Part shown: piece by piece, positions 4,040-28,402 of the stretch | How the letters are laid out: every line of letters begins with the position of its first letter | How positions within the stretch are numbered: position 1 is the first letter of the stretch | Assembly: GCA_009837815.1 (NCBI GenBank) | Contig: VXSV01000153.1 | Span: forward strand, 1-33,302 | Origin: Acidimicrobiia bacterium | GTDB taxonomy: Bacteria > Actinomycetota > Acidimicrobiia > Spongiisociales > ZC4RG35 | DNA: 33,302 nucleotides | Direction: 5' to 3' | Notes under the pieces: model-generated | The model's input: the letters and a program-made list of their open reading frames with translations, nothing else | The model's database searches: none | What the model was told of the DNA's origin: nothing | Position numbers and translations under genes: made by a program

Positions 4040-5035
4040 TCAGCTCCGATCGACCAGGGCGCCGAAGCCTCCTCCGGTGTGCCAGAAGACGACGTGATCG
4101 TCATCGTCGAATCGGCCGGCGGCGATCTCCTTCCGCAACCCGTAGATTGCCTTCCCGGTGTATGTCGGGTCGAACAAAAGGCCCGTAAGCCGGGTTGCCT
4201 GAGTCTGTACCTCCATCAGTTCCTCGCTGACCTTGGCGTACCCGCCGGTCAGGTATTGGTCGGTGTGCTCCAGCAGCGGTGACGGCATCTCCCCCCCGAA
4301 GGCTTCCACCCCCGACTGCCAGATCGGCCGCACACGCGCCATCAGGGACTCGACCGGCTCCGATATGCAGAGAGCCAAGAGCGGACTCTGGAAGCCGGTC
4401 CGGTCGGCCGCCCAGCCGAAGCCCGACGTGGTGCCGCCCGATGAGCCGGCATGCACCACCGCAGCCACGTCTGCGCCGATCTCTTGGGGGATCTGTTTCA
4501 CCAACTCCCGAAACCCCAGAGACATCCCCCACATCCCCAGCTTGTCGGAAGCGCCCTGGGGGATTACCCACGCCTTGCGGCCCGTAGCGGCCAGGCGGGC
4601 TGCGTCCTCGGCCATGATCTCATCCCGGTGCTCCCAGTCGGCCACCGATATGTAACTGATCGCGGCGCCGGCCAGCATGTCGATGAGCAGGTTCCCGCCG
4701 ACCTTGGCCGGCGCCGCGCCATCCGGGGTGCGGAGCACCAGGCGCACGTCCAAGCCCAACCGGGCACAGGCCAGGGCGGTGGCCCGGCAGTGGTTCGACT
4801 GGTAGGCTCCGCAGGTGATCACTGTGTCGGCGGTGGCCTCAAGAGCCGCCGCCAGGTGAAACTCCAGTTTTCGGACCTTGTTGCCAGACAGGCCGAAACC
4901 GGTCAGGTCGTCGCGCTTCACCCACACATGGGGCCCTCCCCATGCCTCCCTCAATCGGGGGAATCTGTGCAGCGGGGTGGGGGTGAGGGCGAGATCGAGT
5001 TGAGGCAGTGGCTGGCGTAGGGGTGTTTGATCCAT
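4040..5035 (-). CDS. D-cysteine desulfhydrase / ACC deaminase family PLP enzyme
   Basis: 331 residues, normal for the family. PLP-dependent fold-type II enzyme. The cofactor lysine is expected at about residue 53 in LSGNKVRKLE; the next conserved block is CGAYQSNHCRATA, and the C-terminus has DPTYTGKAIYGL and FWHTGGGFGALVD. D-cysteine desulfhydrase splits D-cysteine into pyruvate, sulfide and ammonia; ACC deaminase breaks the plant ethylene precursor into 2-oxobutyrate and ammonia. The tail DP-x-YTGKA with HTGG fits the desulfhydrase branch better to my eye, but the few residues that separate the two activities need a proper alignment. The gene is divergent from pheA. A TATAGT box lies 6 nt before the ATG, so the mRNA may be leaderless. 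Confidence 0.82.
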   Translation of the reverse strand: MDQTPLRQPLPQLDLALTPTPLHRFPRLREAWGGPHVWVKRDDLTGFGLSGNKVRKLEFHLAAALEATADTVITCGAYQSNHCRATALACARLGLDVRLVLRTPDGAAPAKVGGNLLIDMLAGAAISYISVADWEHRDEIMAEDAARLAATGRKAWVIPQGASDKLGMWGMSLGFRELVKQIPQEIGADVAAVVHAGSSGGTTSGFGWAADRTGFQSPLLALCISEPVESLMARVRPIWQSGVEAFGGEMPSPLLEHTDQYLTGGYAKVSEELMEVQTQATRLTGLLFDPTYTGKAIYGLRKEIAAGRFDDDDHVVFWHTGGGFGALVDRS

Positions 5036-5047: not shown

Positions 5048-5204
5048 GGCAAAATACCCCGATGATCACGACGGGGAAGTCGCCAAAATCCCGGCCCCTG
5101 ATTCGGGATCTCTCTCCCAAGGTATGTTGCTGATGCATCGAGTTCGTCATGACAGGACCGGGGTTCGAAGCGTTAACCGCGAAGCCGGGTAGGATTCGCG
5201 TGCC

Positions 5205-6221
5205 GTGATGGCTACTCCTGGTACAAGTTCGCGCTCTTTGGGCTTCCTGGGACCTGCCGGCACCTTCACCGAGGAGGCGCTGGTCACCCGCCAAAGCCTG
5301 GCCGAGATGCGCCGTCAACCGTTCAACTCGATGATGCAGGTACTGAAGGCCGTGGAGTCCGGCAGGGTGGATCTCGGGTTCGTCCCGATCGAGAACATGA
5401 TCGAGGGGGCCGTCACCTCCAGCATCGATGCCCTTGCCTTCGGAACCGGCCTGTTGATCCAGTACGAGGTGACAATGGATGTCCGGCTCACGCTGATGGC
5501 GCTTCCGGGCGCGGATCTCGACGGCGTCAAGTACCTCCGTTCCTACCCCGTGGCTTAGGCCCAGTGCAGTCGGTACCTTATGCGCCGGCTGCCCGACGTC
5601 GTGATGGTTGCGGCGAACTCGACGGCCGCGGCCGCCCGTGAACTGGCCGCCCGGGGGGACTTGGACACGGTGGTGATCGCACCGCAGAGAGCCGCCGACG
5701 TCTACGGCCTGGAGGTGCTGGCGGTGGACATAGAGGACCAGCCCGGCAAAAAGACGCGCTTTCTGCTGGTCGGCCGTGATACCGTTCCGCGACCGACCGG
5801 ACAGGACAAGACGAGCCTGGTCGTGTACCAGCACGCCGACGCACCAGGGTCGCTGGTGGGGAGCCTGGGCGAGTTCGTTGCCAGGTCCATCAACATCACC
5901 AGCCTGCAGAGCCGCCCGACCAAGGCCGGCCTGGGAAGCTACTGCTTCCTCATCGACTGCGAGGGTCACATAATGGACGAACGGTTGGGCGATGCGCTAC
6001 GCAACCTCCAGATGCGCGCGGCCGGGGTCAAGTTCCTCGGTTCCTATCCGGCCGACTCTGTCGACCATGTGCGCGATCCGGCCAACCGGGCAGAGCGCGA
6101 AGATGTGGATGCTTCCTACTTGGACGAGGAGGGATACCTGTTGTTGGCGAGTGTTCCGGACCAGGCGAGCCGTGGCCAAGCCGATGAATGGCTCGCCGAC
6201 GTACGCTCCAGAGTCGTCTGA
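5205..6221 (+). pseudogene. pheA: Prephenate dehydratase with an in-frame TAG at codon 118
   Basis: Prephenate dehydratase makes phenylpyruvate from prephenate in phenylalanine synthesis. The N-terminal part opens with LGFLGPAGTFTEEAL and has FVPIENMIEGAV, both family blocks. At 5556-5558 a TAG interrupts the frame, in the stretch SYPVA-TAG-AQCSRYL, where family members have one ordinary residue. The frame then continues without shift: VVAPQR-like block, the catalytic TRF motif (KTRFLLVGRD), and a C-terminal ACT domain with DAPGSLVGSLGEF and LQSRPTK, the phenylalanine-binding GALV and ESRP-type sites. The total of 338 codons is somewhat longer than usual for the family. Start GTG 5205 or ATG 5208. 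Because everything else is intact, this is a fresh nonsense mutation, a sequencing or assembly error, or readthrough. TAG ends other genes here (nuoH, nuoI, nuoM, betA), so reassignment is unlikely. Confidence 0.85.
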
Positions 6222-6556
6222 TTCGATTTGGGTGACCACCGCGTCAGCCCCACAGCGGAAGTCTTGTCCCTGACTCCTTCAGCCGCAGCCGACGCTGCTG
6301 TGCATCAGGTATGGCGTGGCCTGCGAGATTCCACAACTCTGGTGAGTGGTGTTCAACGGTCAGATGGGCGAGTCCATGCGCAACCGCTGACTCGATGAGG
6401 ACAGGGCCCGGTGTCATCACTCGTGGCTAAGGTTGCCCTGTAGATGTCCTGTGCAGTATGCCCCGAGGGGATGCCGGACGCCTTAGCAAGAGGTTCGGGT
6501 TTGAAGACCCAGTGTGTATTACTTACACCGGAGGCTTTCTCCCGGGGAGCTTGGTT
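6222..6556. other. Intergenic region with small hairpins before the ThDP enzyme gene
   Basis: 335 bp without a supportable gene. Two short perfect hairpins lie near its end: GGGT-TTGAAG-ACCC at 6497-6510 and GTGTA-TTACT-TACAC at 6514-6528, just before the ribosome binding site. They could form a structured mRNA leader, but I do not recognise any known riboswitch. I see no tRNA, and no good -35/-10 pair. Confidence 0.4.
6544..6549 (+). promoter_or_regulatory. Ribosome binding site deciding the start at 6557
   Basis: GGGGAG lies 7 nt before the ATG at 6557. The frame is open further upstream to 6458, but those residues do not fit the family and have no such site, so 6557 is the preferred start. 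Confidence 0.6.
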
Positions 6557-8233
6557 ATGGTGAGAATGACCGGCGGCGAAGCCCTGGTGAGGTCCTTGGT
6601 GATGGAGGGCGTCGACGTGGTGTTCGGGCTTCCGGGCATCCAACTGTACGGAATCGTGGCGGCGCTTCGGGACGAGCCTGCGATCCGGACGATCACGACC
6701 CGGCACGAGCAGGCCACCACGTACATGGCGGACGGGTATGCACGGGCAACGGGAAAGCCGGGGGTGGCATTGGTGGTACCTGGTGCGGGTCTCTACAATG
6801 CTGCTGCCGGCCTGGCTACGGCTTACGCTCGCTGCTCACAGGTGCTGATCATTGCCGGACAGATCCCCCGCGATCAGATCGGGAAGAATCTGGGGGGTGT
6901 TCATGAGATAGCGGATCAGTCCTCGGTGGTGCGGCCGGTGACCAAGTGGCGAACGCTGGTGCTCACTCCCCAAGACATACCGTCGGCGGTCAACGAAGCT
7001 GTCAGGCAGATGCGGACGGGGTGTCCCCGGCCGGTCATGATCGAAATCCCTCCTGATGTGGGAGTGGAGCGTGAGGAGGTGGTGTTGCAACAGCCGGCTT
7101 CCCTTTCGGCGGTTGTGCCCAGCGGGAAACGACTCCAGGAAGCCGCCCGGGCGATAGCTCGATCAAGTCTCCCTCTCATCTATGCGGGCGGCGGCGTGGC
7201 TCGAGCCGACGCGGAAGGCGCGTTGGTCAAGTTGGCCGAAGCCACGAACATCCCGGTCATCACATCCTGTGGCGGGAAGGGAACCATTCCCGACAGCCAT
7301 CCCTTGTCTTACGGTTCGTGTGTCAGCCCCAGGGGGGAAAGACATGAGATGAACCAACTCTATGAGGTAATGCAGTCCGCCGACTTGGTGATCGGCGTGG
7401 GGACGCGCTTTTCTCTGGGGAATCCCGCCGGAGAGTCGTCCACTCTCATAAACATCAACATCGACGAACGGGAACTGACGAGGCTCCAATCCAACACCAT
7501 CCCCCTGCACGGCGACGCTCGGGTGACTATCGAGGCCCTGCTCCCCCTCCTCGACGAAGCCGGGGCAGGAGACCGACCGTCACCTGCAGAAGCCGTGACA
7601 GCCGCGCGGCGCTTGATTGCCCACTACGACATCCAGGACCGCGAACCCCAGTACCCGATCCTGCAGTTGATCCGCGACATTATCCCCGACGATGCCTTCG
7701 TGGTCTGGGGAATCACCCAGTTCGGCTATTACGCCCGCACCCACTTCCAGGTGAATCAGCCCAAGACCTACATAGATTCGGGTTACTCCTTCAACCTCGG
7801 TTACGCATTCCCGACCGCCCTGGGCGTCAAAGTGGGGCAACCCGACCGTCCGGTGGTGTGCATCATCGGGGACGGCGGGTTCATGTTCAACTCGTCCGAG
7901 CTCTCCACTGCAATGAAGTACGGCATCAACCTGACGACCGTGGTGTTCAGGAACGATTCCTTCGGCAATGTGGCCCGGGACCTCGACGAGTTCTTCGACG
8001 GAACCTACGAAACCGACTTGCACAACCCGGACTTTGTGGGGTTCGCCGAGTCATTCGGGGCAGTCGGTCTGAGGGCGGAAGATCCTTCCGACCTGAGCAG
8101 GCTGATCCCCCTGGCGCTCGAACACCCCGCTCCGGTGATCATCGACGTGCCCGTCAAAAACATGCCACTGCCCAGGGCCAAGGCCCTCCAGCACATCCCC
8201 TCCTTAGCCTGGTCCGTACCCGAAAGAGCCTGA
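6557..8233 (+). CDS. Thiamine-diphosphate enzyme, acetolactate synthase large-subunit-like
   Basis: 558 residues with the three-domain layout of the acetolactate synthase/pyruvate oxidase family. The N-terminal ThDP domain has FGLPGIQLYG and the activating glutamate (about residue 51) in TTRHEQATTYMADGYARATG. The middle domain begins near residue 185. The C-terminal domain has the ThDP-Mg motif GDGGFMFNSSEL (from about residue 438), ending in the conserved Asn of VVFRNDSFGN. No small regulatory subunit gene (ilvH/ilvN) or ilvC is adjacent, so a branched-chain biosynthetic role is not supported by context. The family also includes sulfoacetaldehyde acetyltransferase, 2-oxoacid decarboxylases and benzoylformate decarboxylase. 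The exact reaction remains open. Confidence 0.8.
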   Translation: MVRMTGGEALVRSLVMEGVDVVFGLPGIQLYGIVAALRDEPAIRTITTRHEQATTYMADGYARATGKPGVALVVPGAGLYNAAAGLATAYARCSQVLIIAGQIPRDQIGKNLGGVHEIADQSSVVRPVTKWRTLVLTPQDIPSAVNEAVRQMRTGCPRPVMIEIPPDVGVEREEVVLQQPASLSAVVPSGKRLQEAARAIARSSLPLIYAGGGVARADAEGALVKLAEATNIPVITSCGGKGTIPDSHPLSYGSCVSPRGERHEMNQLYEVMQSADLVIGVGTRFSLGNPAGESSTLININIDERELTRLQSNTIPLHGDARVTIEALLPLLDEAGAGDRPSPAEAVTAARRLIAHYDIQDREPQYPILQLIRDIIPDDAFVVWGITQFGYYARTHFQVNQPKTYIDSGYSFNLGYAFPTALGVKVGQPDRPVVCIIGDGGFMFNSSELSTAMKYGINLTTVVFRNDSFGNVARDLDEFFDGTYETDLHNPDFVGFAESFGAVGLRAEDPSDLSRLIPLALEHPAPVIIDVPVKNMPLPRAKALQHIPSLAWSVPERA

Positions 8234-8320
8234 ACTCACCGACATTCCAGAGCGTACGTCAGCAACCTCACCCTTCCGAGCCTACGACGGGTGTTGCCCC
8301 CGCACCGCGGCGGGGCGTTT

Positions 8321-17993: not shown

Positions 17994-18349
17994 ATGACCT
18001 CTTATTTCGAGAACTATCTGTTCGTGGCTGCCTTTGCCCTTCTCGGGGTGGTGCTGGTGCTGGTCATGCTGGGTGTCGCTTCGATTCTGCGGCCCCATAA
18101 GCCGACCGCCGCCAAGAAACTCACCTACGAATGCGGGGTCGACCCGGTTGGGGAGGAGTGGAGCCAGACATATGTGCGTTACTACGTGTTCGGCCTCCTG
18201 TTCGTGATCTTCGACGTGGAGGCGGCTTTCATCTTCCCCTGGGCTATCCTGGCCGAGGATCTCGGGGTGTTCGGCCTGGTGGCGATCATCATCTTCATGC
18301 TCACCCTGGTGGAGGGTCTGTTCTACGCCATCAAGAAGGGAGTCCTGCG

Positions 18350-18359
<10 letters not shown>
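17994..18359 (+). CDS. nuoA: NADH-quinone oxidoreductase subunit A
   Basis: 121 residues with three membrane helices, as usual. Subunit A helps join the membrane arm of complex I to the peripheral arm near the quinone site. The conserved loop [18 protein letters not shown] holds the Cys and Glu typical of NuoA, followed by [21 protein letters not shown]. First gene of the nuo operon; its stop overlaps the nuoB start. Confidence 0.97.
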
Positions 18360-18830
<471 letters not shown>

Positions 18831-18850
<20 letters not shown>

Positions 18851-19418
18851 GGTGGAGATGGCAGATGCCGAGGGTTCCGGGGAGGACAACTCCCTGGCAA
18901 ATCGGGCCGCCGAGGCGGTGGGAGGGTTGGTGCTGGAAGCCCTGGAGACCGCCAAGGTGGGGGTGGCGGCCGACCGGTGGGCCGAGGCGTTGCGGATCGC
19001 CCGGGACGATCTGGGGCTGTCCTTCTTCTCCTGGCTTTCGGCCGTGCACTGGGCCAACGATCCGCAGGTCGGCGACCCTCTGTCGGCAGAGGTGACCGAG
19101 CGATTCGAGCTTCTGTGCGCGGTCTCGGACGTGACCGCCGGGGAGTTGGTGGTGTTCTCGACCGACCTGGAGGCGACCGATCCCACGGTCGACAGCCTGA
19201 TAGATGTCTACCCGGGGGCGGACTGGCATGAGCGGGAGTGCCGGGAGATGTTCGGCATCAACTTCGCCGGCCATCCCCGGCCCGAGAACCTCTACCTCCC
19301 CAACGGGTTCGTGGGTTATCCGCTGCTCAAGTCCTTCCCCCTGCTCAGCCGGGAAGTGAAGCCCTGGCCGGGAGAGGTGGACGTCGAGGACATGCCCGAA
19401 GTCGCGGGGGGCGGATGA
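18831..19418 (+). CDS. nuoC: NADH-quinone oxidoreductase subunit C
   Basis: About 195 residues. Peripheral-arm subunit of complex I, the 30-kDa family. The signature [20 protein letters not shown] near residue 135 is clear, with an acidic N-terminal extension. Start chosen at GTG 18831 (AGAGAAG upstream, overlapping nuoB); ATG 18858 is an alternative, which would leave no room for a ribosome binding site. Separate from nuoD, unlike the nuoCD fusion of E. coli. Confidence 0.93.
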
Positions 19419-19419
19419 A

Positions 19420-20610
19420 ATGACCATGGCCCCCGACATGGTCCGCCACCTCTCGGGAGCGGCGGTCTCCGTCGAACTGGAGACTCCCGACATGACTCTC
19501 AACATCGGTCCCCAGCATCCTTCGACACACGGGGTGCTGCGTCTGGTGGCCAAGGTCGACGGGGAGAGGGCATTCGACGTGCAGCCGGTGATCGGTTACA
19601 TGCACCGGGGTTATGAGAAGCTGGCCGAGGTGCGGAACTATCCCCAGATCACCGCCCTTATCAACCGGATCGACTGGGTGTCGGGGTATGCCAACGAGAT
19701 TCCCTTCATGGTGGCGGCCGAGCGGCTGATGGGAGTGGAGCCCCCCGATCGGGCCCAGTTCATCCGCCTGATTCTCACCGAGATGGCCCGCATCTCCTCA
19801 CACCTGATCTTCCAGGCCTCTTACCCCCTGGAGTTGGGGGCGGCCACTCCGCTGTTCTTCGCTCTGCGGGACCGCGAACGGGTGCTCGATCTGATCGAGT
19901 CGGTCACCGGCGGGCGGTTCCATCCCAACTTCAACCGGATTGGCGGCGTGAAACCGGCGGTGGGAGCGGGGCCGGTTACTCGTAAGACCATCCAGGACCT
20001 GCCTGCCGGCTTCCTGTCGGAGACCCGGGACGCCATGGACCGGGTGCTGTCGACCGCCGACGAACTGGAGGACCTGGTGGCGGGCAACGAGATCGTCCTG
20101 GCCCGCACCAAGGACATCGGGGTCATCCCACCGGAGGTGGCCCTCTCATACGGCGTGTCCGGACCCATCCTCCGGGCCTCGGGGGTGCCGTTCGACCTTC
20201 GCAGGGTCTCCGACTACCTGCCCTACCACCTGTTCGACTTCGAGATTCCCACCGGAGAGAACGGCGACTGCTGGGACCGCTGGTGGGTCCGCCTGGAGGA
20301 GATCCGCCAGTCGGCTTCCATCATCCGCCAGGCCGTCGACGCCATTCCATCGGGACCGCTGCAGGCCAAGGTGCCCCGCATCATCAAGGTGCCTGCCGGT
20401 GAGATCTACGTGCGGGCCGAGAACCCCAAGGGGGAGATGGGGTACTACGTGGTCTCCGACGGGGGCCTGGGTCCCTACCGGCTCAAGATCCGTTCGGCGT
20501 CCTTTTCCAACATCTCTATCCTGCCCTGGGTATTGGAGGGGACGCTGGTTCCCGACATAATCGCCATCCTGGGATCGCTGGACTTCGTCCTGGGAGACGT
20601 CGACAGATGA
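19420..20610 (+). CDS. nuoD: NADH-quinone oxidoreductase subunit D
   Basis: 396 residues. Subunit D forms the quinone pocket with NuoB. Characteristic blocks are NIGPQHPSTHGVLRL with the quinone-contacting His, IGYMHRGYEKLAE, INRIDWVSGYANE and the C-terminal LGSLDFVLGDVDR. In many subunit D proteins the sequence ends in the same LDFVLGxVDR way, so the gene is complete. Its stop overlaps an ATG by 4 nt, which opens the doubtful frame in the following gap. In most actinobacterial operons nuoE would come next. Confidence 0.97.
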   Translation: MTMAPDMVRHLSGAAVSVELETPDMTLNIGPQHPSTHGVLRLVAKVDGERAFDVQPVIGYMHRGYEKLAEVRNYPQITALINRIDWVSGYANEIPFMVAAERLMGVEPPDRAQFIRLILTEMARISSHLIFQASYPLELGAATPLFFALRDRERVLDLIESVTGGRFHPNFNRIGGVKPAVGAGPVTRKTIQDLPAGFLSETRDAMDRVLSTADELEDLVAGNEIVLARTKDIGVIPPEVALSYGVSGPILRASGVPFDLRRVSDYLPYHLFDFEIPTGENGDCWDRWWVRLEEIRQSASIIRQAVDAIPSGPLQAKVPRIIKVPAGEIYVRAENPKGEMGYYVVSDGGLGPYRLKIRSASFSNISILPWVLEGTLVPDIIAILGSLDFVLGDVDR

Positions 20611-20939
20611 AGCCCTCCACAACTCCCCGCAAGCCGAATTCACACCCGCTATCTCGCGAAATTCGCCACGGCTCTCCCGGCCTATGGGCCCTCCCCCGCC
20701 ACCGCCTTTCCGTGGGTCGAACGCGGGTGTCCGGGGCCGGGTTGGGGGCCGGATGCCGGGTTCGGAGTGTGACCTTCATGCGGTCCGGGGACGTCTGCTC
20801 GGGCCGGGAGGTGTTTGTGACTGCTGTAAGTGTGGATCGGGGCGGTGACACTTTCAACCCCCAAGGGCGGGTTTTCTCGACGACCGGCCGAAAAGTTTCC
20901 CAGTTTCGGGGGACCCCCGCGAGGGGTGGGCGACCGTGA
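20607..20939 (+). other. Gap between nuoD and nuoH where nuoE, nuoF and nuoG are expected; holds a doubtful 110-codon frame
   Basis: The gap proper is 20611-20935, 325 bp. A 110-codon frame fills it exactly, overlapping the nuoD stop (ATGA) and the nuoH start (GTGA) by 4 nt each. Those overlaps look like translational coupling, but the product is Arg-rich, has no recognisable fold or motif, and its third-position G+C (78 of 110 codons) is clearly lower than in the nuo genes beside it. There is no trace of a flavin or NADH site or of the Cys patterns of NuoE, NuoF or NuoG. It may be a scar of a lost nuoEFG block, a spacer, or a short novel gene. Confidence 0.35.
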
Positions 20940-21940
20940 GTCCCTGGCTGGCTTTGGCGATCTGGCTGCTGGTGGTGGCCACCATCATCCCGGTGATGGG
21001 GATGGCGATCGGGTATGCGGAGATGAAGATCTCCGCCCACATGCAGAGCCGGATCGGGCCCTACTTCGCAGGTGGCCGGTTCGGTTGGGCACAGCTCATC
21101 GCCGACGGCGTGAAGTTCTTCCAGAAAGAGGACCTGGTCCCCGACAACGCCGACCGCCCGGTGTTCAAGATGGCCCCGGTGCTGGTGATGGTGGGCACGG
21201 TGGGGCTGTTCGTGGTGATTCCCTTCGGGCCGGGCCTGACCCCCCAGAACCTCGACCTGGGCATCTTCTACGCCCTGGCCATCTCGTCGATCGGCACCAT
21301 CGGGGTGCTGATGGCCGGGTGGTCGTCGGGCAACAAGTACTCCCTGATGGGAGGCCTCCGGGCCGCCGGGCAGTTGATCGCGTATGAGTTGCCGCTGGTG
21401 CTGGCGGTGGTGGGAGTGGTGATCCTGGCGGGCACCATGAGCCTCGACGGGATCGTCCAGGCGCAGATCTCCTGGTTCTCCGAGGCCGGATGGAGCCTGG
21501 GGATGCCCTTCGTGATCGTCCAGGCCGTCGGGCTGGGGGTGTTCTTCGTCGCCAGCCTCGCCGAGTTGTCCCGGATACCCTTCGACATGCCCATCGCCGA
21601 ATCCGAACTGGTCATGGGGTATCTGACCGAGTACTCGGGCTTTCGGTTCCTGTTCTTCTTCCTGGCCGAGTTCGCCAACATGTTCACCCTCTCGGCGATC
21701 GCGGCCACCCTGTTCCTGGGCGGCTACTGGGTCCCCGGAGTCCCCGACTCGATACTCCAGTTCGTGGGACCCCTGGTGCTCCTGGGGAAGATCGCACTCT
21801 TCGTGTTCGTCAGCATCTGGTTCCGCTGGACCTTCCCCCGTTTCCGGGAAGACCAGCTCCAGACGCTGGCCTGGAAGTGGCTGGTCCCCATCTCCCTGGC
21901 CAACATCATCGTCACCGGCGTCCTGAAGGTGGTGCTTTAG
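20936..21940 (+). CDS. nuoH: NADH-quinone oxidoreductase subunit H
   Basis: 334 residues with about eight membrane helices; it connects the membrane arm to the quinone channel. Family blocks: QSRIGPYFAGGRFGWAQLI, ADGVKFFQKED, and the loop with acidic residues IPFDMPIAESELVMGYLTEY, followed by FLAEFANM. Starts with GTG at 20936. Ends in TAG, with nuoI following without any gap. Confidence 0.97.
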   Translation: MSPWLALAIWLLVVATIIPVMGMAIGYAEMKISAHMQSRIGPYFAGGRFGWAQLIADGVKFFQKEDLVPDNADRPVFKMAPVLVMVGTVGLFVVIPFGPGLTPQNLDLGIFYALAISSIGTIGVLMAGWSSGNKYSLMGGLRAAGQLIAYELPLVLAVVGVVILAGTMSLDGIVQAQISWFSEAGWSLGMPFVIVQAVGLGVFFVASLAELSRIPFDMPIAESELVMGYLTEYSGFRFLFFFLAEFANMFTLSAIAATLFLGGYWVPGVPDSILQFVGPLVLLGKIALFVFVSIWFRWTFPRFREDQLQTLAWKWLVPISLANIIVTGVLKVVL

Positions 21941-22414
21941 ATGAAACTGATGAAGCTCTCCGTTCCCGGCGTCGGACTGCTCAAGGGACTGAAGGTAACC
22001 CTCCGCACCCTCTTCACACGCCCGGTCACCGTCAACTACCCCAAGGTGAAGGAGACCCCCGTCCCCCGGGCGAGGGGAGTAATCGCCCTGGAGCCCGAGG
22101 CCTGCACGGTGTGCATGCTGTGCGCCCGCCAGTGCCCCGACTGGTGCATCTACATCGAGGGCCACAAAGAGGAGCGTCCGCCGTCGCGGCCCGGAGGGCG
22201 GCCCCGGGTGCGCGCCACCCTCGATCGCTTCGACATCGACTACGCCCTGTGCATGTACTGTGGGATCTGCGTGGAGGTCTGCCCCTTCGACGCCCTGTTC
22301 TGGAGCCCCGACTATGAGTATTCGGAGACCGAGATGGGTGCGATGCTCCATGACCAGGACCGCCTCTTCGACTGGCTGGGCACCGTGCCCCCCGCCCCGG
22401 CCCTGGAGCGGTAG
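21941..22414 (+). CDS. nuoI: NADH-quinone oxidoreductase subunit I
   Basis: 157 residues, slightly short for actinobacterial NuoI. Carries two 4Fe-4S clusters passing electrons towards NuoB. Both ferredoxin motifs are intact: [12 protein letters not shown] and [12 protein letters not shown]. The first helix-like stretch ([18 protein letters not shown]) is the membrane-facing N-terminus of the family. Because nuoF and nuoG are missing, the electron source upstream of these clusters is not encoded here. Ends with TAG directly before nuoJ. Confidence 0.97.
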
Positions 22415-22969
22415 ATGGGCTTCGAGGACTGGGCGGCCGAGCCGATCAACTGGGTGTTCCTGGCGGTTGCGCTGGCCACCACGGTCTCGGGCCTTAGAGT
22501 GGTCACCTCCCCGAACGTGGTCCACGCCGCCCTGTTCCTGGTGGCCGCCCTGGCCGGGACCGCCGCCATATTCCTGCTGCTGGCCGCCGAGTTCCTGGCC
22601 TGGGTGTTGGTCCTGGTCTACATAGGCGCGGTGATCGTGCTGTTCCTGTTCGGGATCATGATCACCCGCGCCCCCACCGGCCGCGACGAAGCGGAGGTCG
22701 ATCACGGGCGCCGCCTGCCCGCCGTGCTGGTCTCGACCGCCCTCTTCATCCTGCTGTTGTGGGGCCTGGTCTCCCAGTGGGGGGACACGACTCTGGACAG
22801 TGTCACCGCCGGCACGCCCACCTCGGTGCTGGCCGAAGGGCTCCTGGGCCGATTTGTCTTCCCCTTCGAGGTGGTGGGATTCGTGTTGCTGGCCGCCCTG
22901 GTGGGAGGCATAACCATCGCCCGCCGAGACCTCAGTCCGGCAGAGGAAAAGGAGCGAGAGTCCAGGTGA
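22415..22969 (+). CDS. nuoJ: NADH-quinone oxidoreductase subunit J
   Basis: 184 residues with five predicted membrane helices. The third helix has the family pattern [20 protein letters not shown], containing the pi-bulge region involved in proton pumping. The stop overlaps the nuoK start (GTGA). Confidence 0.95.
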
Positions 22970-23271
22970 TCCTCAACCAATTCCTGATCCTGGCGGCACT
23001 GCTGTTCTGCATGGGGGTGTACGGACTCTTGGTGCGCCGCAACGCGGTGATGGTGCTCTTGTCCGTCGAGCTGATGCTGGCCGCGGTGAACATCAACCTG
23101 GTGGCCCTGGACGCCCTCTGGCAGACCGCCGAGGCGCTCGGGCAGATCATGGCGGTGTTCATCATCACCATCGCCGCCGCCGAGGTGGGGATCGGCCTGG
23201 CCATCATCCTCCTGATCTTCCGTAACCGGCGCTCGGCAAACGTGGACGAGCTGAACCTGATGCGCTGGTGA
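22966..23271 (+). CDS. nuoK: NADH-quinone oxidoreductase subunit K
   Basis: 101 residues, three helices, standard for NuoK. The two glutamates needed for proton transfer are present in [12 protein letters not shown] and [16 protein letters not shown] start overlapping nuoJ by 4 nt, with AAGGAG 11 nt upstream. Its stop overlaps the nuoL start. Confidence 0.96.
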
Positions 23272-25310
23272 AAATGGGTGTGAGCGCAAGCCCCCATCTG
23301 GCCGCGGAGAGCGCCGCCGCGGTGGCGACCACCGGCGGTATCTTCTCGGAGTGGGCCGGCTTGATGCTGATCGGGCCCATACTGGCCTTCTTGGTGATCG
23401 TCCTCTTCGGAAAGCGGATGAGACACCAGGGGGCCGAGGTGGCGATCGGAGCCATGGCCTTCAACTTGGTCTGGTCGTCGGCCCTGTTGTTGCTGAACAT
23501 GGGCGACTCCGGAGTCCTGTATGAACGGAGCCTCGAGATCGCATCGGTGGGTGGTGGTCTGGTCTTCGAGTTGGGATGGATTGTGGACGGCCTGTCGATC
23601 ATGATGTACTGGGTGGTGGCGGCGGTGGGACTGGCGGTGTTCATCTACGCCCACGGCTACATGAAGGGGGAGGTCAGGGTCACCTTCTTCTTCGCCGCCC
23701 TGTCGCTGTTCGCCGGGTCGATGCTGGTGCTGGTGGGAAGCCCCAACCTGGTGCAGTTGATCATTGGCTGGGAGGGGGTGGGCCTGGCTTCCTACCTCCT
23801 GATCGGCCACCACTGGGAGCTGAAGGAGAACTCGTCGGCGGCAATGAAAGCCTTCTACACCAACAAGGTGGCCGACGTGGGCCTGGTGATCGGGGTGATC
23901 ATCATCGGGATCACGCTCGGCTCCTTCCACTTCTGGGACCTGGCCTCGGCGGCCGCGGAGCACAGCGCCGCGCTGGGACCCGTGGCGGTGGCGGCCGGTC
24001 TGCTGCTGTTCTTCGGCGCGATGGGAAAGAGCGCCCAGTTCCCCCTCCACATCTGGCTCCCCGACGCCATGGCCGGACCCACTCCGGTCTCGGCCCTCAT
24101 GCACGCCGCCACCATGGTGACCGCCGGGATCTACCTGATGGCCCGCACCTTCCCCCTCTACCAGGAACTGGCCACCGCCGCCCGGCCCTGGATGATTGCC
24201 GCGGGGACCGTCACGCTGTTCGGGATGGGCCTTTTGGCCCTGGTGGCCGACGACATAAAGCGGGTCCTGGCCTACTCCACGGTCAGCCAACTGGGCTACA
24301 TGATGACCGCGGTGGCGGCCGGAGGATACACCGCCGGGCTGTTCCACCTCTTCACCCATGCCTTCTTCAAAGCGCTCCTGTTCCTGGGAGCCGGATCGGT
24401 TATCCACGCCGTGCACTCCAACAATATGTCCGACATGGGGGGCCTGCGCCGCCACATGCCCGACACCTACCGCACCTTCGTGATGGGCGCCCTGGCGCTG
24501 GCCGGCGTCTTCCCCCTGTCGGGGTTCTGGTCCAAAGACGAGATCCTGGCCACCCTCGGCTACGAGGGTTACACCGTGGTGATGTGGATCGCGGTGGCGG
24601 GCGCCTTCGTGACCGCCTTCTACATGGCCAGGGCGGTGGCCCTCACCTTCTTCGGCGAGTTCCGGGGCCACGGCGAGCCTCACGAGTCGCCCCCGATCAT
24701 GACCCGTCCCCTCTGGGCGCTTGCGGTTCCCGCCGTCCTGGCCGGGGTGGTGAACATCCCCGGCCTGAAGCTGCCGTGGATCGGCAACTTCACCTCCTGG
24801 CTATCGGTGCGGAGCGTGCCGATGGGCGACCACCACGCCGAGGCCATCGACCTGGGTCTGGCCGCCGCCGGTCTGGCCGCCGCCGTGGCAGGCCTGTGGC
24901 TGGGCTGGGTGGCCTTCGGTCCGCCCGCCGCCGATCGCACTGACCGGGACCGGGTGGAGGTTCCGGTGCTCTACCCCCTCCTACGCCAAAAGTACTACCT
25001 CGACCATGCCGCCCTGGGGCTGGTGTGGGTGATCCGCCAACCGGCCGCCCGGGCGGTGAACTGGGTGAACGACTACGTGATCGACGGGGTGGTGAACGGG
25101 GTCGGGGCGCTGTGTCAGCGCCTGGCCGGCCTGTTGTACGGCGGGGTCGACCAGCACGGCATCGACGGGGTGGTACACGGGCTGTCGTGGGGCACATCGG
25201 GAATGGGAGGCATGATTCGCCGGATTCAGAGCGGCCGGGTCCAGCAGTATGCTGGCCTGCTGGTGGCGGGTCTCCTGCTGCTGGCGGTCGTGGTCCTTTT
25301 CGTCCTATGA
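23268..25310 (+). CDS. nuoL: NADH-quinone oxidoreductase subunit L
   Basis: 680 residues, one of the three antiporter-like proton pumps. Family blocks: [18 protein letters not shown] with the key Glu, [24 protein letters not shown] with the key Lys, and [15 protein letters not shown]. The C-terminal region (about 560-680) carries the long lateral helix and last membrane helix that brace the membrane arm. Start GTG 23268 (GTGA overlap with nuoK) or ATG 23274. Confidence 0.97.
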
Positions 25311-25333
25311 GATACCGAATGGGAGACTGATAA

Positions 25334-26917
25334 ATGGATTTGTTGGAAAGCTGGGCTCTAAGCCTGATCGTCTTTCTCCCACTGGTGGGAGCGCTGGTGG
25401 CCCTGGCCATCCCCAAGGAGCGAGAGGAGGCGGTGAAGCAGTGGACGCTCCTGGTGAGCGTGGTGACCCTGATCCTGGCGGTGGTGGTCGCCGCCCGCTT
25501 CGACTTCGGGGCGGCCGCCGGATTCCAGTTCGAGGTCGACGTTCCCTGGATCAGCGCGATCGGCGCCAACTACCACATAGGTATAGACGGGATCAGCCTG
25601 CCGCTCCTGGTGCTGTCGGCCCTGGTGGTGGTGTTGTGCGTGATCTATTCCTGGCAGCACTGGGACGAGCCCCGCAACCCTCGGGCCTTCCTCATCCTGA
25701 TGATGATCCTCGCCACCGGGATGAACGGGACCTTCGTGGCCCTGGACCTGGTGCTGTTCTTCATCTTCTTCGAGTTGGTGCTGCTTCCCATGTACTTCAT
25801 GATCGGAATCTGGGGAGACCGCACCATGCGGAAGATCCCCGGGTTCCGAAAAGAGGTAGAGACCCGACTGTACGCGGCGATCAAGTTCTTCATCTTCACC
25901 CTGTTCGGGTCGGCCTTCATGCTTCTGGGTTTTCTGGCCCTCTACTTCAAGTCGGGGTCGGGAGGACAGCAATCCACATTCGACATTCCCGAGCTGATCG
26001 CACGCGGTCACCTCTTCGAAGGCACATTCGCCTGGCTGGTGTTCGGGGCGATGTTCCTCGGCTTCGCGGTGAAAGTGCCCATGTGGCCCTTCCACACCTG
26101 GCTCCCCGACGCCCACACCGCGGCGCCCACCGTCGGATCGGTGCTGCTCGCAGCCATCCTCCTGAAGCTCGGCTCCTACGCGTTCATCCGGATCGCCATC
26201 CCCATCCTCCCCGACACCGCCCGCGACTGGGCGCCGGCCATCGCGGTGCTGGCGGTAATCGGGATCATCTACGGGTCCCTGGCGTGTTTGGCCCAGACCG
26301 ACGTCAAACGGTTGATCGCCTTTTCGTCGGTGGGGCACATGGGGTTCGTGATGCTGGGCATCGCCACCCTCACCGAGGTGGGGATCAACGCCGCCATCAT
26401 CGGGATGGTGGCCCACGGTCTGATCACCGGCCTCCTGTTCTTCCTGGCAGGCTCCATCCACCACCGCTACCACACCCGGGAGATGTCGCGCCTGGGCGGC
26501 AACCTCAAGCTGATGCCGGTCATGGGCGGGATCCTCGGGTTCACCGCCATGGCCAGCCTGGGACTGCCCGGCCTGGCCGGATTCTGGGGCGAGTTCATGG
26601 CACTCCTGGGCTCCTACCAGCCGCTGCCGGGCCTCTCAACCTCCTTCTTTCGCACCGCCATGGTGATCGGCGCAATCGGCACGGTCCTGACCGCCGGCTA
26701 CATGCTCTGGATGCTCCAAAAGGTCAACCTGGGCGAACCGTCGTCCGAGTGGGCCGGGAAGGAATTCCAGGACGTCGACCGCTACGAGATGGCCGCCTGG
26801 GCGCCGCTGATAGTGCTGATCGTGGCGGTGGGCGTCTACCCCAGGCTGGTGCTGGGGGCGACCACCGACGCGGTGGTGGGCTTGGTGGAGACGGCGTTCC
26901 GGGCCGTCGGAGGCTAG
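25334..26917 (+). CDS. nuoM: NADH-quinone oxidoreductase subunit M
   Basis: 527 residues, antiporter-like subunit. Visible blocks are DGISLPLLVLSAL, FFIFFELVLLPMYFMIGIWG with the conserved Glu, and KVPMWPFHTWLPDAHTAAPT with the conserved Lys. GGGAGA precedes the ATG by 7 nt. The 23-nt gap to nuoL is one of the few real gaps in the operon. Confidence 0.97.
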   Translation: MDLLESWALSLIVFLPLVGALVALAIPKEREEAVKQWTLLVSVVTLILAVVVAARFDFGAAAGFQFEVDVPWISAIGANYHIGIDGISLPLLVLSALVVVLCVIYSWQHWDEPRNPRAFLILMMILATGMNGTFVALDLVLFFIFFELVLLPMYFMIGIWGDRTMRKIPGFRKEVETRLYAAIKFFIFTLFGSAFMLLGFLALYFKSGSGGQQSTFDIPELIARGHLFEGTFAWLVFGAMFLGFAVKVPMWPFHTWLPDAHTAAPTVGSVLLAAILLKLGSYAFIRIAIPILPDTARDWAPAIAVLAVIGIIYGSLACLAQTDVKRLIAFSSVGHMGFVMLGIATLTEVGINAAIIGMVAHGLITGLLFFLAGSIHHRYHTREMSRLGGNLKLMPVMGGILGFTAMASLGLPGLAGFWGEFMALLGSYQPLPGLSTSFFRTAMVIGAIGTVLTAGYMLWMLQKVNLGEPSSEWAGKEFQDVDRYEMAAWAPLIVLIVAVGVYPRLVLGATTDAVVGLVETAFRAVGG

Positions 26918-26920
26918 GTA

Positions 26921-28402
26921 GTGACGCGGATCGACTGGCTGGCCATCGCCCCCGAGGTGGTGGTGGCCGCCGCGCTTCTGGTGGTGCTGGCCGTCGATCT
27001 GTTCCTCCCCCGGGAGCGCAAATACTGGGTGGCGGCGCTGGCCGTGGTGGGGACCACCCTGGCCATGGTGCCGGTGATCCTCATGGCGGTCTCAGGCGAC
27101 AACTACTCGATGTTCGGCGGGTCCTATGTGGTGGACGACTTCGCGTTGGTGCTCAAGGGGGTTTTCCTGGTGGCGGGGTACCTGGTGCTCCTGATCTCGG
27201 TCTCCTACATCGAGTCCGACCGCTACTACCAGGGCGAGTACTACCTGCTGCTGCTGTCTTCGCTGCTGGGGTCGATGGTCCTCACCTCGGCGCGGGACCT
27301 GGTGGTGCTGTTCGTCGCCCTGGAGTTGACCACCGGGCCGCTGTTCCTCCTGGCCGGGTGGCGCAAGGGAGACCTTCGCTCCAACGAGGCCTCGCTCAAG
27401 TTCTTCATAATCGGGGTGCTGTCCACCGGCCTGATGCTCTATGGGATGTCGCTCCTCTTCGGTCTCACCGGGGAACTCTCCTTCGAAGGCATCCGGGAGG
27501 CGATCTCGACGGGCGGCATGGCCTCCGAACCGGTGCTGGGCTTGGCGGTGCTCCTCATCCTGGTGGGGTTCGGATTCAAGGTCTCGGCGGTTCCCTTCCA
27601 CTTCTGGGCGCCGGATACCTACCAGGGTTCCCCTCCGCCGGTTACCGCTTATCTCTCGGTCTCCTCCAAGCTGGCCGGGTTCGTGGCCATGCTGGCAGTG
27701 ATCTACCTGGCGCTCCCGGCGGCCACCGACTTCTGGGGCCCGGCGCTGTGGCTGATGGCCGCGGTCTCCATGACGGTCGCCAACCTCTCCGCGTTGCGCC
27801 AGTCTCATCTGATCCGCCTGCTCGCCTACTCGTCGGTCGCCCAGGCCGGGTTCATGCTGGTCCCCTTCGCCGGAGGGGCGATTGCCGAGAACGGTCTGTC
27901 CGAGGGCCTGGGCGCCACCGTCATCTACCTGGTCATATATGCGGTGATGAACCTGGGCGCCTTCGCGGTGGTGATCGCCGGCGGGCGGCGCATCGGAAGC
28001 TACGAGATCGCCGACTGGAGGGGCCTGGGCTCCTACTCGCCCCGTCTGGGGGTGATGCTGGCGGTGTTCTTCCTCTCTTTGGCCGGATTGCCTCCCCTGG
28101 CCGGGTGGTTCGCCAAGTTCGTGATGTTCCGGGCGGTTCTGATCTCCACCGGCCCGGCGGGCGTCTGGCTGGCGGTAATCGCCGCTGTCAACGCGGTGGT
28201 GGCCTTCTACTACTACGCCCGGGTGGTGAAGAGCGCCTGGTTCGACCAAGCGCCCGACGAGATCCCCGAGGACACCGAGACCGGTCCCACCGGGCCTCTC
28301 TCCCTCGCAATGGGCATAGCGCTGGTGGTGGTGTTGGTGGTGGGAGTCTTCCCGGGACTAGCCACCTTCTTCGGTGACGCCGCGGCGGCGCTGGTCCCCT
28401 GA
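26921..28402 (+). CDS. nuoN: NADH-quinone oxidoreductase subunit N
   Basis: 493 residues, third antiporter-like subunit. Family features: LVVLFVALELTTGPLFLLAG with the conserved Glu, GFKVSAVPFHFWAPDTYQGS with the conserved Lys, and LPPLAGWFAKFVMFRA. Begins with GTG 3 nt after the nuoM stop. Last gene of the operon; a short imperfect G/C hairpin spans its stop codon. Confidence 0.97.
   Translation: MTRIDWLAIAPEVVVAAALLVVLAVDLFLPRERKYWVAALAVVGTTLAMVPVILMAVSGDNYSMFGGSYVVDDFALVLKGVFLVAGYLVLLISVSYIESDRYYQGEYYLLLLSSLLGSMVLTSARDLVVLFVALELTTGPLFLLAGWRKGDLRSNEASLKFFIIGVLSTGLMLYGMSLLFGLTGELSFEGIREAISTGGMASEPVLGLAVLLILVGFGFKVSAVPFHFWAPDTYQGSPPPVTAYLSVSSKLAGFVAMLAVIYLALPAATDFWGPALWLMAAVSMTVANLSALRQSHLIRLLAYSSVAQAGFMLVPFAGGAIAENGLSEGLGATVIYLVIYAVMNLGAFAVVIAGGRRIGSYEIADWRGLGSYSPRLGVMLAVFFLSLAGLPPLAGWFAKFVMFRAVLISTGPAGVWLAVIAAVNAVVAFYYYARVVKSAWFDQAPDEIPEDTETGPTGPLSLAMGIALVVVLVVGVFPGLATFFGDAAAALVP

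Follow-up and report, generated by a model that had tools for sequence, protein, structure and literature searches.

Monofunctional bacterial PheA proteins combine a prephenate dehydratase (PDT) domain with an ACT domain (PF00800 and PF01842 in Pfam; PRK11898 in NCBIfam). The gene described here, pdt2, is likewise collinear with the whole profile and has the TRF motif and an ACT region; unlike PheA, the copy under study has a stop at codon 118 and a lysine in place of the asparagine of the NxTRF motif (Asn in 15 of 15 other aligned rows). The nearest solved sequence is 3mwb_A, which an intact orthologue from the same genus matches with an E value of 3.9e-58, extending about 50 residues past the matched region at its C end. 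Pseudogenes of laterally acquired, redundant genes offer a further comparison: pdt2 shares with them a single nonsense mutation, an intact paralogue, raised dN/dS and a patchy distribution, and apart from the fact that its decay is very young, with one lesion, there is no notable difference. Mobile insertion cassettes consist of passenger genes lying between insertion-sequence ends. Segments carrying pdt2 are likewise flanked by pieces of a short dispersed repeat, and stand at different sites in related genomes, but they lack convincing terminal inverted repeats and their borders vary by genome. A literature search at title level found no title on pdt2.

The window, that is, the whole stretch of 33,302 nucleotides that was analysed, belongs to a draft genome (G000) of 2,343,800 bases in 156 contigs, estimated as 94.4% complete. 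The features around pdt2 are the following.

4040-5035, minus strand: D-cysteine-desulfhydrase-family gene (D-cys), the left flank of pdt2, used as a divergence control
5063-5118, plus strand: left part of the repeat of about 300 bp, diverged (79-80% identity)
5119-8280, no strand assigned: segment with pdt2 and the TPP enzyme, absent between the flanking genes in the related genome G001 (comparison with its contig C110; borders approximate)
5205-6221, plus strand: pdt2, accessory prephenate dehydratase (PDT and ACT), interrupted; Pfam and NCBIfam models matched on either side of the stop; the order has 14 further genomes with an orthologue
5205-5555, plus strand: pre-stop fragment of 117 codons, covering the beginning of the PDT domain (PF00800 positions 2-104 of 181)
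5556-5558, plus strand: in-frame TAG, codon 118; TAT in G003, G004 and G005
5559-6221, plus strand: post-stop part, with the remainder of the PDT domain including the TRF motif, and the ACT region (Pfam matches)
From 5580, plus strand: ATG-initiated open reading frame (ORF) of 213 aa within the post-stop part (ORF listing)
6557-8233, plus strand: thiamine-pyrophosphate (TPP) enzyme, acetolactate-synthase-like
8281-8320, plus strand: fragment of the right part of the repeat of about 300 bp (80% over 40 bases, E 1.8e-4)

Read from the GTG at 5205, the pdt2 frame contains a single internal stop, the TAG at 5556-5558, which is real in the assembled sequence, and downstream of it the frame stays open up to the TGA at 6219-6221. 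PF00800 is matched at positions 2-104 on the 5' side of the stop (E 3.3e-23) and at positions 106-179 of 181 on the 3' side (E 5.4e-19), a collinearity far beyond chance; only one column of the profile is missing between the two halves, and thus only one codon is affected. The NCBIfam model PRK11898 is also matched on either side (4-110 and 112-281). The ACT domain lies 3' of the stop and scores 25.8 bits, slightly below the Pfam cut-off of 27. The initial annotation had described a single in-frame TAG in an otherwise collinear prephenate dehydratase, with the TRF motif and ACT region after it, and these matches bear it out. Counting both sides of the stop, the window copy has the whole PDT profile; with its frame interrupted at codon 118, it is a broken member of the family.

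Codon 118 is TAT (Tyr) in G003, G004 and G005, the three nearest relatives, all of the same genus; in more distant relatives it is a serine codon, TCG in G058 and G051 and TCT in G038. The 15 other aligned rows, which include one locus (L050) with the same protein as G075, have tyrosine here in 4 cases and serine in 11. The proposal that the stop arose one base away from a sense codon therefore stands, while the source codons put forward for it (TTG, TCG or TGG) do not agree with the closest relatives, TCG being found only in distant ones. The pdt2 frame is open in 13 of the 15 genomes that carry the gene, so that the window copy has the inactivating lesion against intact orthologues that characterizes a pseudogene. 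The other exception is G045, from another family, whose copy (L046, contig C68, about 4430-4460, minus strand) has a frameshift at about codon 80; this copy shows no relaxation of selection (omega 0.079), and its frameshift may thus be an error or very young.

A PF00800 search of the G000 genome gave two places: the window copy, with its one TAG, and a stop-free match on contig C81 (40301-40816). The latter lies in an ORF of 268 aa in which PDT and ACT domains both score above their cut-offs. Each of the six genus genomes has an orthologue of the C81 gene without internal stops; G001 and G002 yielded no other PDT, the window type being absent from both. The C81-type protein shares about 63% identity with two copies from elsewhere in the family and about 55% with two from another family, f6, values that might fit a vertically inherited gene; its identity to pdt2 is only about 30-35%. 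We infer from these comparisons that the C81 gene serves as the functional pheA and that phenylalanine synthesis runs on its product. The initial annotation had listed phenylalanine auxotrophy among its options and had named a second intact pheA as evidence against its own reading. The search for such a gene found one, so that the TAG in pdt2 does not imply auxotrophy, which is not supported; with synthesis probably running on the C81 enzyme, loss of pdt2 is expected to be harmless. In 13 genomes of the same family (L003-L013, L016 and L023) PDT domains occur in open frames of 687-853 codons, which are far longer than plain PDT and are possible fusions.

Of the 138 genomes of the order, a protein search found pdt2 in 15: four of the six in this genus and 11 in f6. 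The f6 copies are 77-87% identical in protein to the G003 copy; core PDTs are about 55% identical between the same two families. Synonymous distances of pdt2 from G000 to G003, G004 and G005 are 0.096, 0.095 and 0.107, respectively. For the same pairs, all 27 distances at nine nuo genes fall between 0.20 and 0.43 (0.245-0.264 when concatenated), those at the D-cys flank gene are 0.22-0.34 and those at the core PDT 0.41-0.45. Pairs without G000 show a weaker contrast: between G003 and G005, which are a closely related or recombining pair, nuo distances are 0 to 0.19 versus 0.062 for pdt2. On these distances and this distribution, pdt2 is an accessory paralogue, not the ancestral pheA of the lineage, and it looks recently acquired.

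The positions of the gene differ as well. The four genus genomes that carry pdt2 (G000, G003, G004 and G005) have it at four different sites, and when the DNA around the window, G003 and G005 copies was searched against all six genus genomes, only the gene and short flanks were common to the sites. G005, G001 and G000 lack pdt2 at the G003 site, and the flank of the G005 site is present without pdt2 in all five other genomes. At the window site in G001 (C110), the two flanking genes are 188 bases apart with a whole copy of the repeat between them. In the window the TPP enzyme lies downstream of pdt2 in the same direction; in the f6 genomes examined a TPP enzyme adjoins pdt2 and is convergent with it (L035, 8580-10268; also L037, L038, L046 and L050). 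The f6 neighbours of pdt2 are, as we take them to be from their translations, heme-A-synthase-like genes, the TPP enzyme and a large membrane protein, and these neighbour genes gave no hint of the function of pdt2.

The dispersed intergenic repeat of about 300 bp was found only in this genus (six of 137 genomes of the order, with the best five or fewer candidates scored per genome), whose genomes have between 3 and 29 matches each at E <= 0.001. In the window, pdt2 and the TPP gene lie between its left and right parts, where G001 has the whole repeat. Left and right parts also flank pdt2 in G003 (L032, 9793-9840 and 10902-10963), and in G004 the right part abuts pdt2 while the matching G003 locus holds a whole repeat. 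Evidence at the G005 site is weaker: among the four other alleles that were examined, a repeat occurs in the G004 allele alone, some 130 bases past the junction. The pdt2 segments showed no convincing terminal inverted repeats, and their borders differ among G000, G003, G004 and G005. A fixed mobile cassette was rejected on these two grounds, which favour recombination at the repeats instead.

Several further observations concern the repeat and the window at large. The window's own locus is occupied by the bare repeat in G001 (L086) and runs into a contig end in G003 (L078, C38); in G004 (L085, C59) it holds a putative membrane-protein-like gene, read by eye, and in G005 (L132, C16) an IS1595-transposase/DNA-methylase ORF. 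A contig of G005, its own C81, has a lipoprotein-like ORF of 154 aa without a Pfam match between two repeat parts (L135, 2511-2975), and the repeat was also noted at L090 (995-1330). A 34-base fragment of it lies between nuoD and nuoH in the window (20689-20722). The complex I cluster to which these genes belong (window 17994-28402) runs from nuoA-D directly to nuoH-N, without nuoE, nuoF and nuoG between; two genes of a NuoF-like family (PF01512) are found on other G000 contigs, C155 and C59.

Selection on pdt2 was estimated with our own codon model (GY94 type, F3x4) on 15 sequences, with the stop and the break masked and L050 left out. Omega is 0.416 on the G000 tip versus 0.119 elsewhere (2dlnL 12.0, p 0.0005), the strongest signal among 15 tips tested singly; at the control genes the same tip has omega 0.05 (D-cys) and 0.12 (core PDT). 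Fixing omega at 1 on this tip fits worse (2dlnL 5.1), and thus most of the G000 branch was under some constraint. The open frame of G004 has an omega of 0.44, and G000 (0.417) is not significantly higher than the other three genus tips taken together (0.234, p 0.22). Since the G000 tip is not separable from them, relaxed constraint belongs to pdt2 in the genus generally. The TAG is compatible with this relaxation but is not proved by it.

The account that these observations make highly probable is that window pdt2 is a dispensable, recently laterally acquired and redundant paralogue inactivated by a nonsense mutation, with phenylalanine made via the intact C81 enzyme. The gene would have been gained recently by lateral transfer within a segment of about 3.2 kb between two parts of the dispersed repeat; a one-base change to a stop at codon 118 would then have ended its function and left a product of 117 aa that lacks the TRF motif and the ACT domain. 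The main rival, that pdt2 is intact in the organism and the TAG stems from a wrong base call, from misassembly or from a minority strain in the bin, is distinctly less probable, though not negligible. It draws on the fragmentation of the draft genome, on the openness of the remaining frame and on the failure of omega to separate G000 from the intact genus copies. Against it, the nine nuo genes, the D-cys gene and the TPP gene of the window have no internal stop, and the sole broken gene is the redundant, relaxed one; moreover, five of the 14 residues private to G000 pdt2, including the lysine that replaces asparagine in NxTRF, occupy columns that do not vary among the 15 other rows. Several intact copies equal or exceed G000 in private residues at invariant columns (G069 has 13). 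We infer that the organism carries the TAG as a fixed mutation and that it is not a base-call error.

Two further explanations keep the gene working. Programmed or leaky readthrough of the TAG, yielding a full-length enzyme, would account for the constraint still seen in the post-stop part (omega 0.365; 1 rejected, 2dlnL 5.9), but the pre-stop part is no better conserved (omega 1.37, indistinguishable from 1), and the constraint is thus explained by the time preceding the mutation. Nor is the TAG present in any of the 14 other pdt2-bearing genomes. It is an ordinary terminator in this organism, closing seven of the 27 coding sequences listed in the window (the other 20 end in TGA), and the G000 genome has a release factor 1 gene (prfA) above cut-off. 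Scans found no tRNA in the window and no Rfam family either there or in three loci of the repeat; pdt2 is without a conserved recoding signal that needs explanation. Readthrough is accordingly very improbable, and reassignment of TAG as a sense codon, which the initial annotation had already thought unlikely from the ends of neighbouring genes, was rejected on the same terminator count and the presence of RF1. The least probable explanation, for which we see almost no room, is that pdt2 has become two genes whose pieces are made separately and assemble as a split enzyme: the in-frame ATG at 5580, seven codons past the stop, could serve as a restart, but the arrangement occurs in no other pdt2 genome, the PDT domain itself is cut (at position 105 of 181 in PF00800), and no clear ribosome-binding site was seen by eye upstream of 5580. 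Ordinary gene decay is most likely the kind of event recorded here, and neither a lost pathway nor a new genetic code.

With decay of a redundant paralogue as the preferred reading, the claim of auxotrophy or recoding that this contig alone would suggest is removed, and pathway calls from draft genomes must check for paralogues. The repeat apparently takes up genes that differ between species. More tentatively, it is possible that pdt2 belongs to a pool of genes moving between species of the genus via the repeat of about 300 bp, which would act as a landing pad for cargo without a recombinase, and that such cargo usually ends up inactivated, as by this TAG. If that is true, a short repeat gathering transferred genes within a single bacterial genus would matter more than the decay of pdt2 itself.
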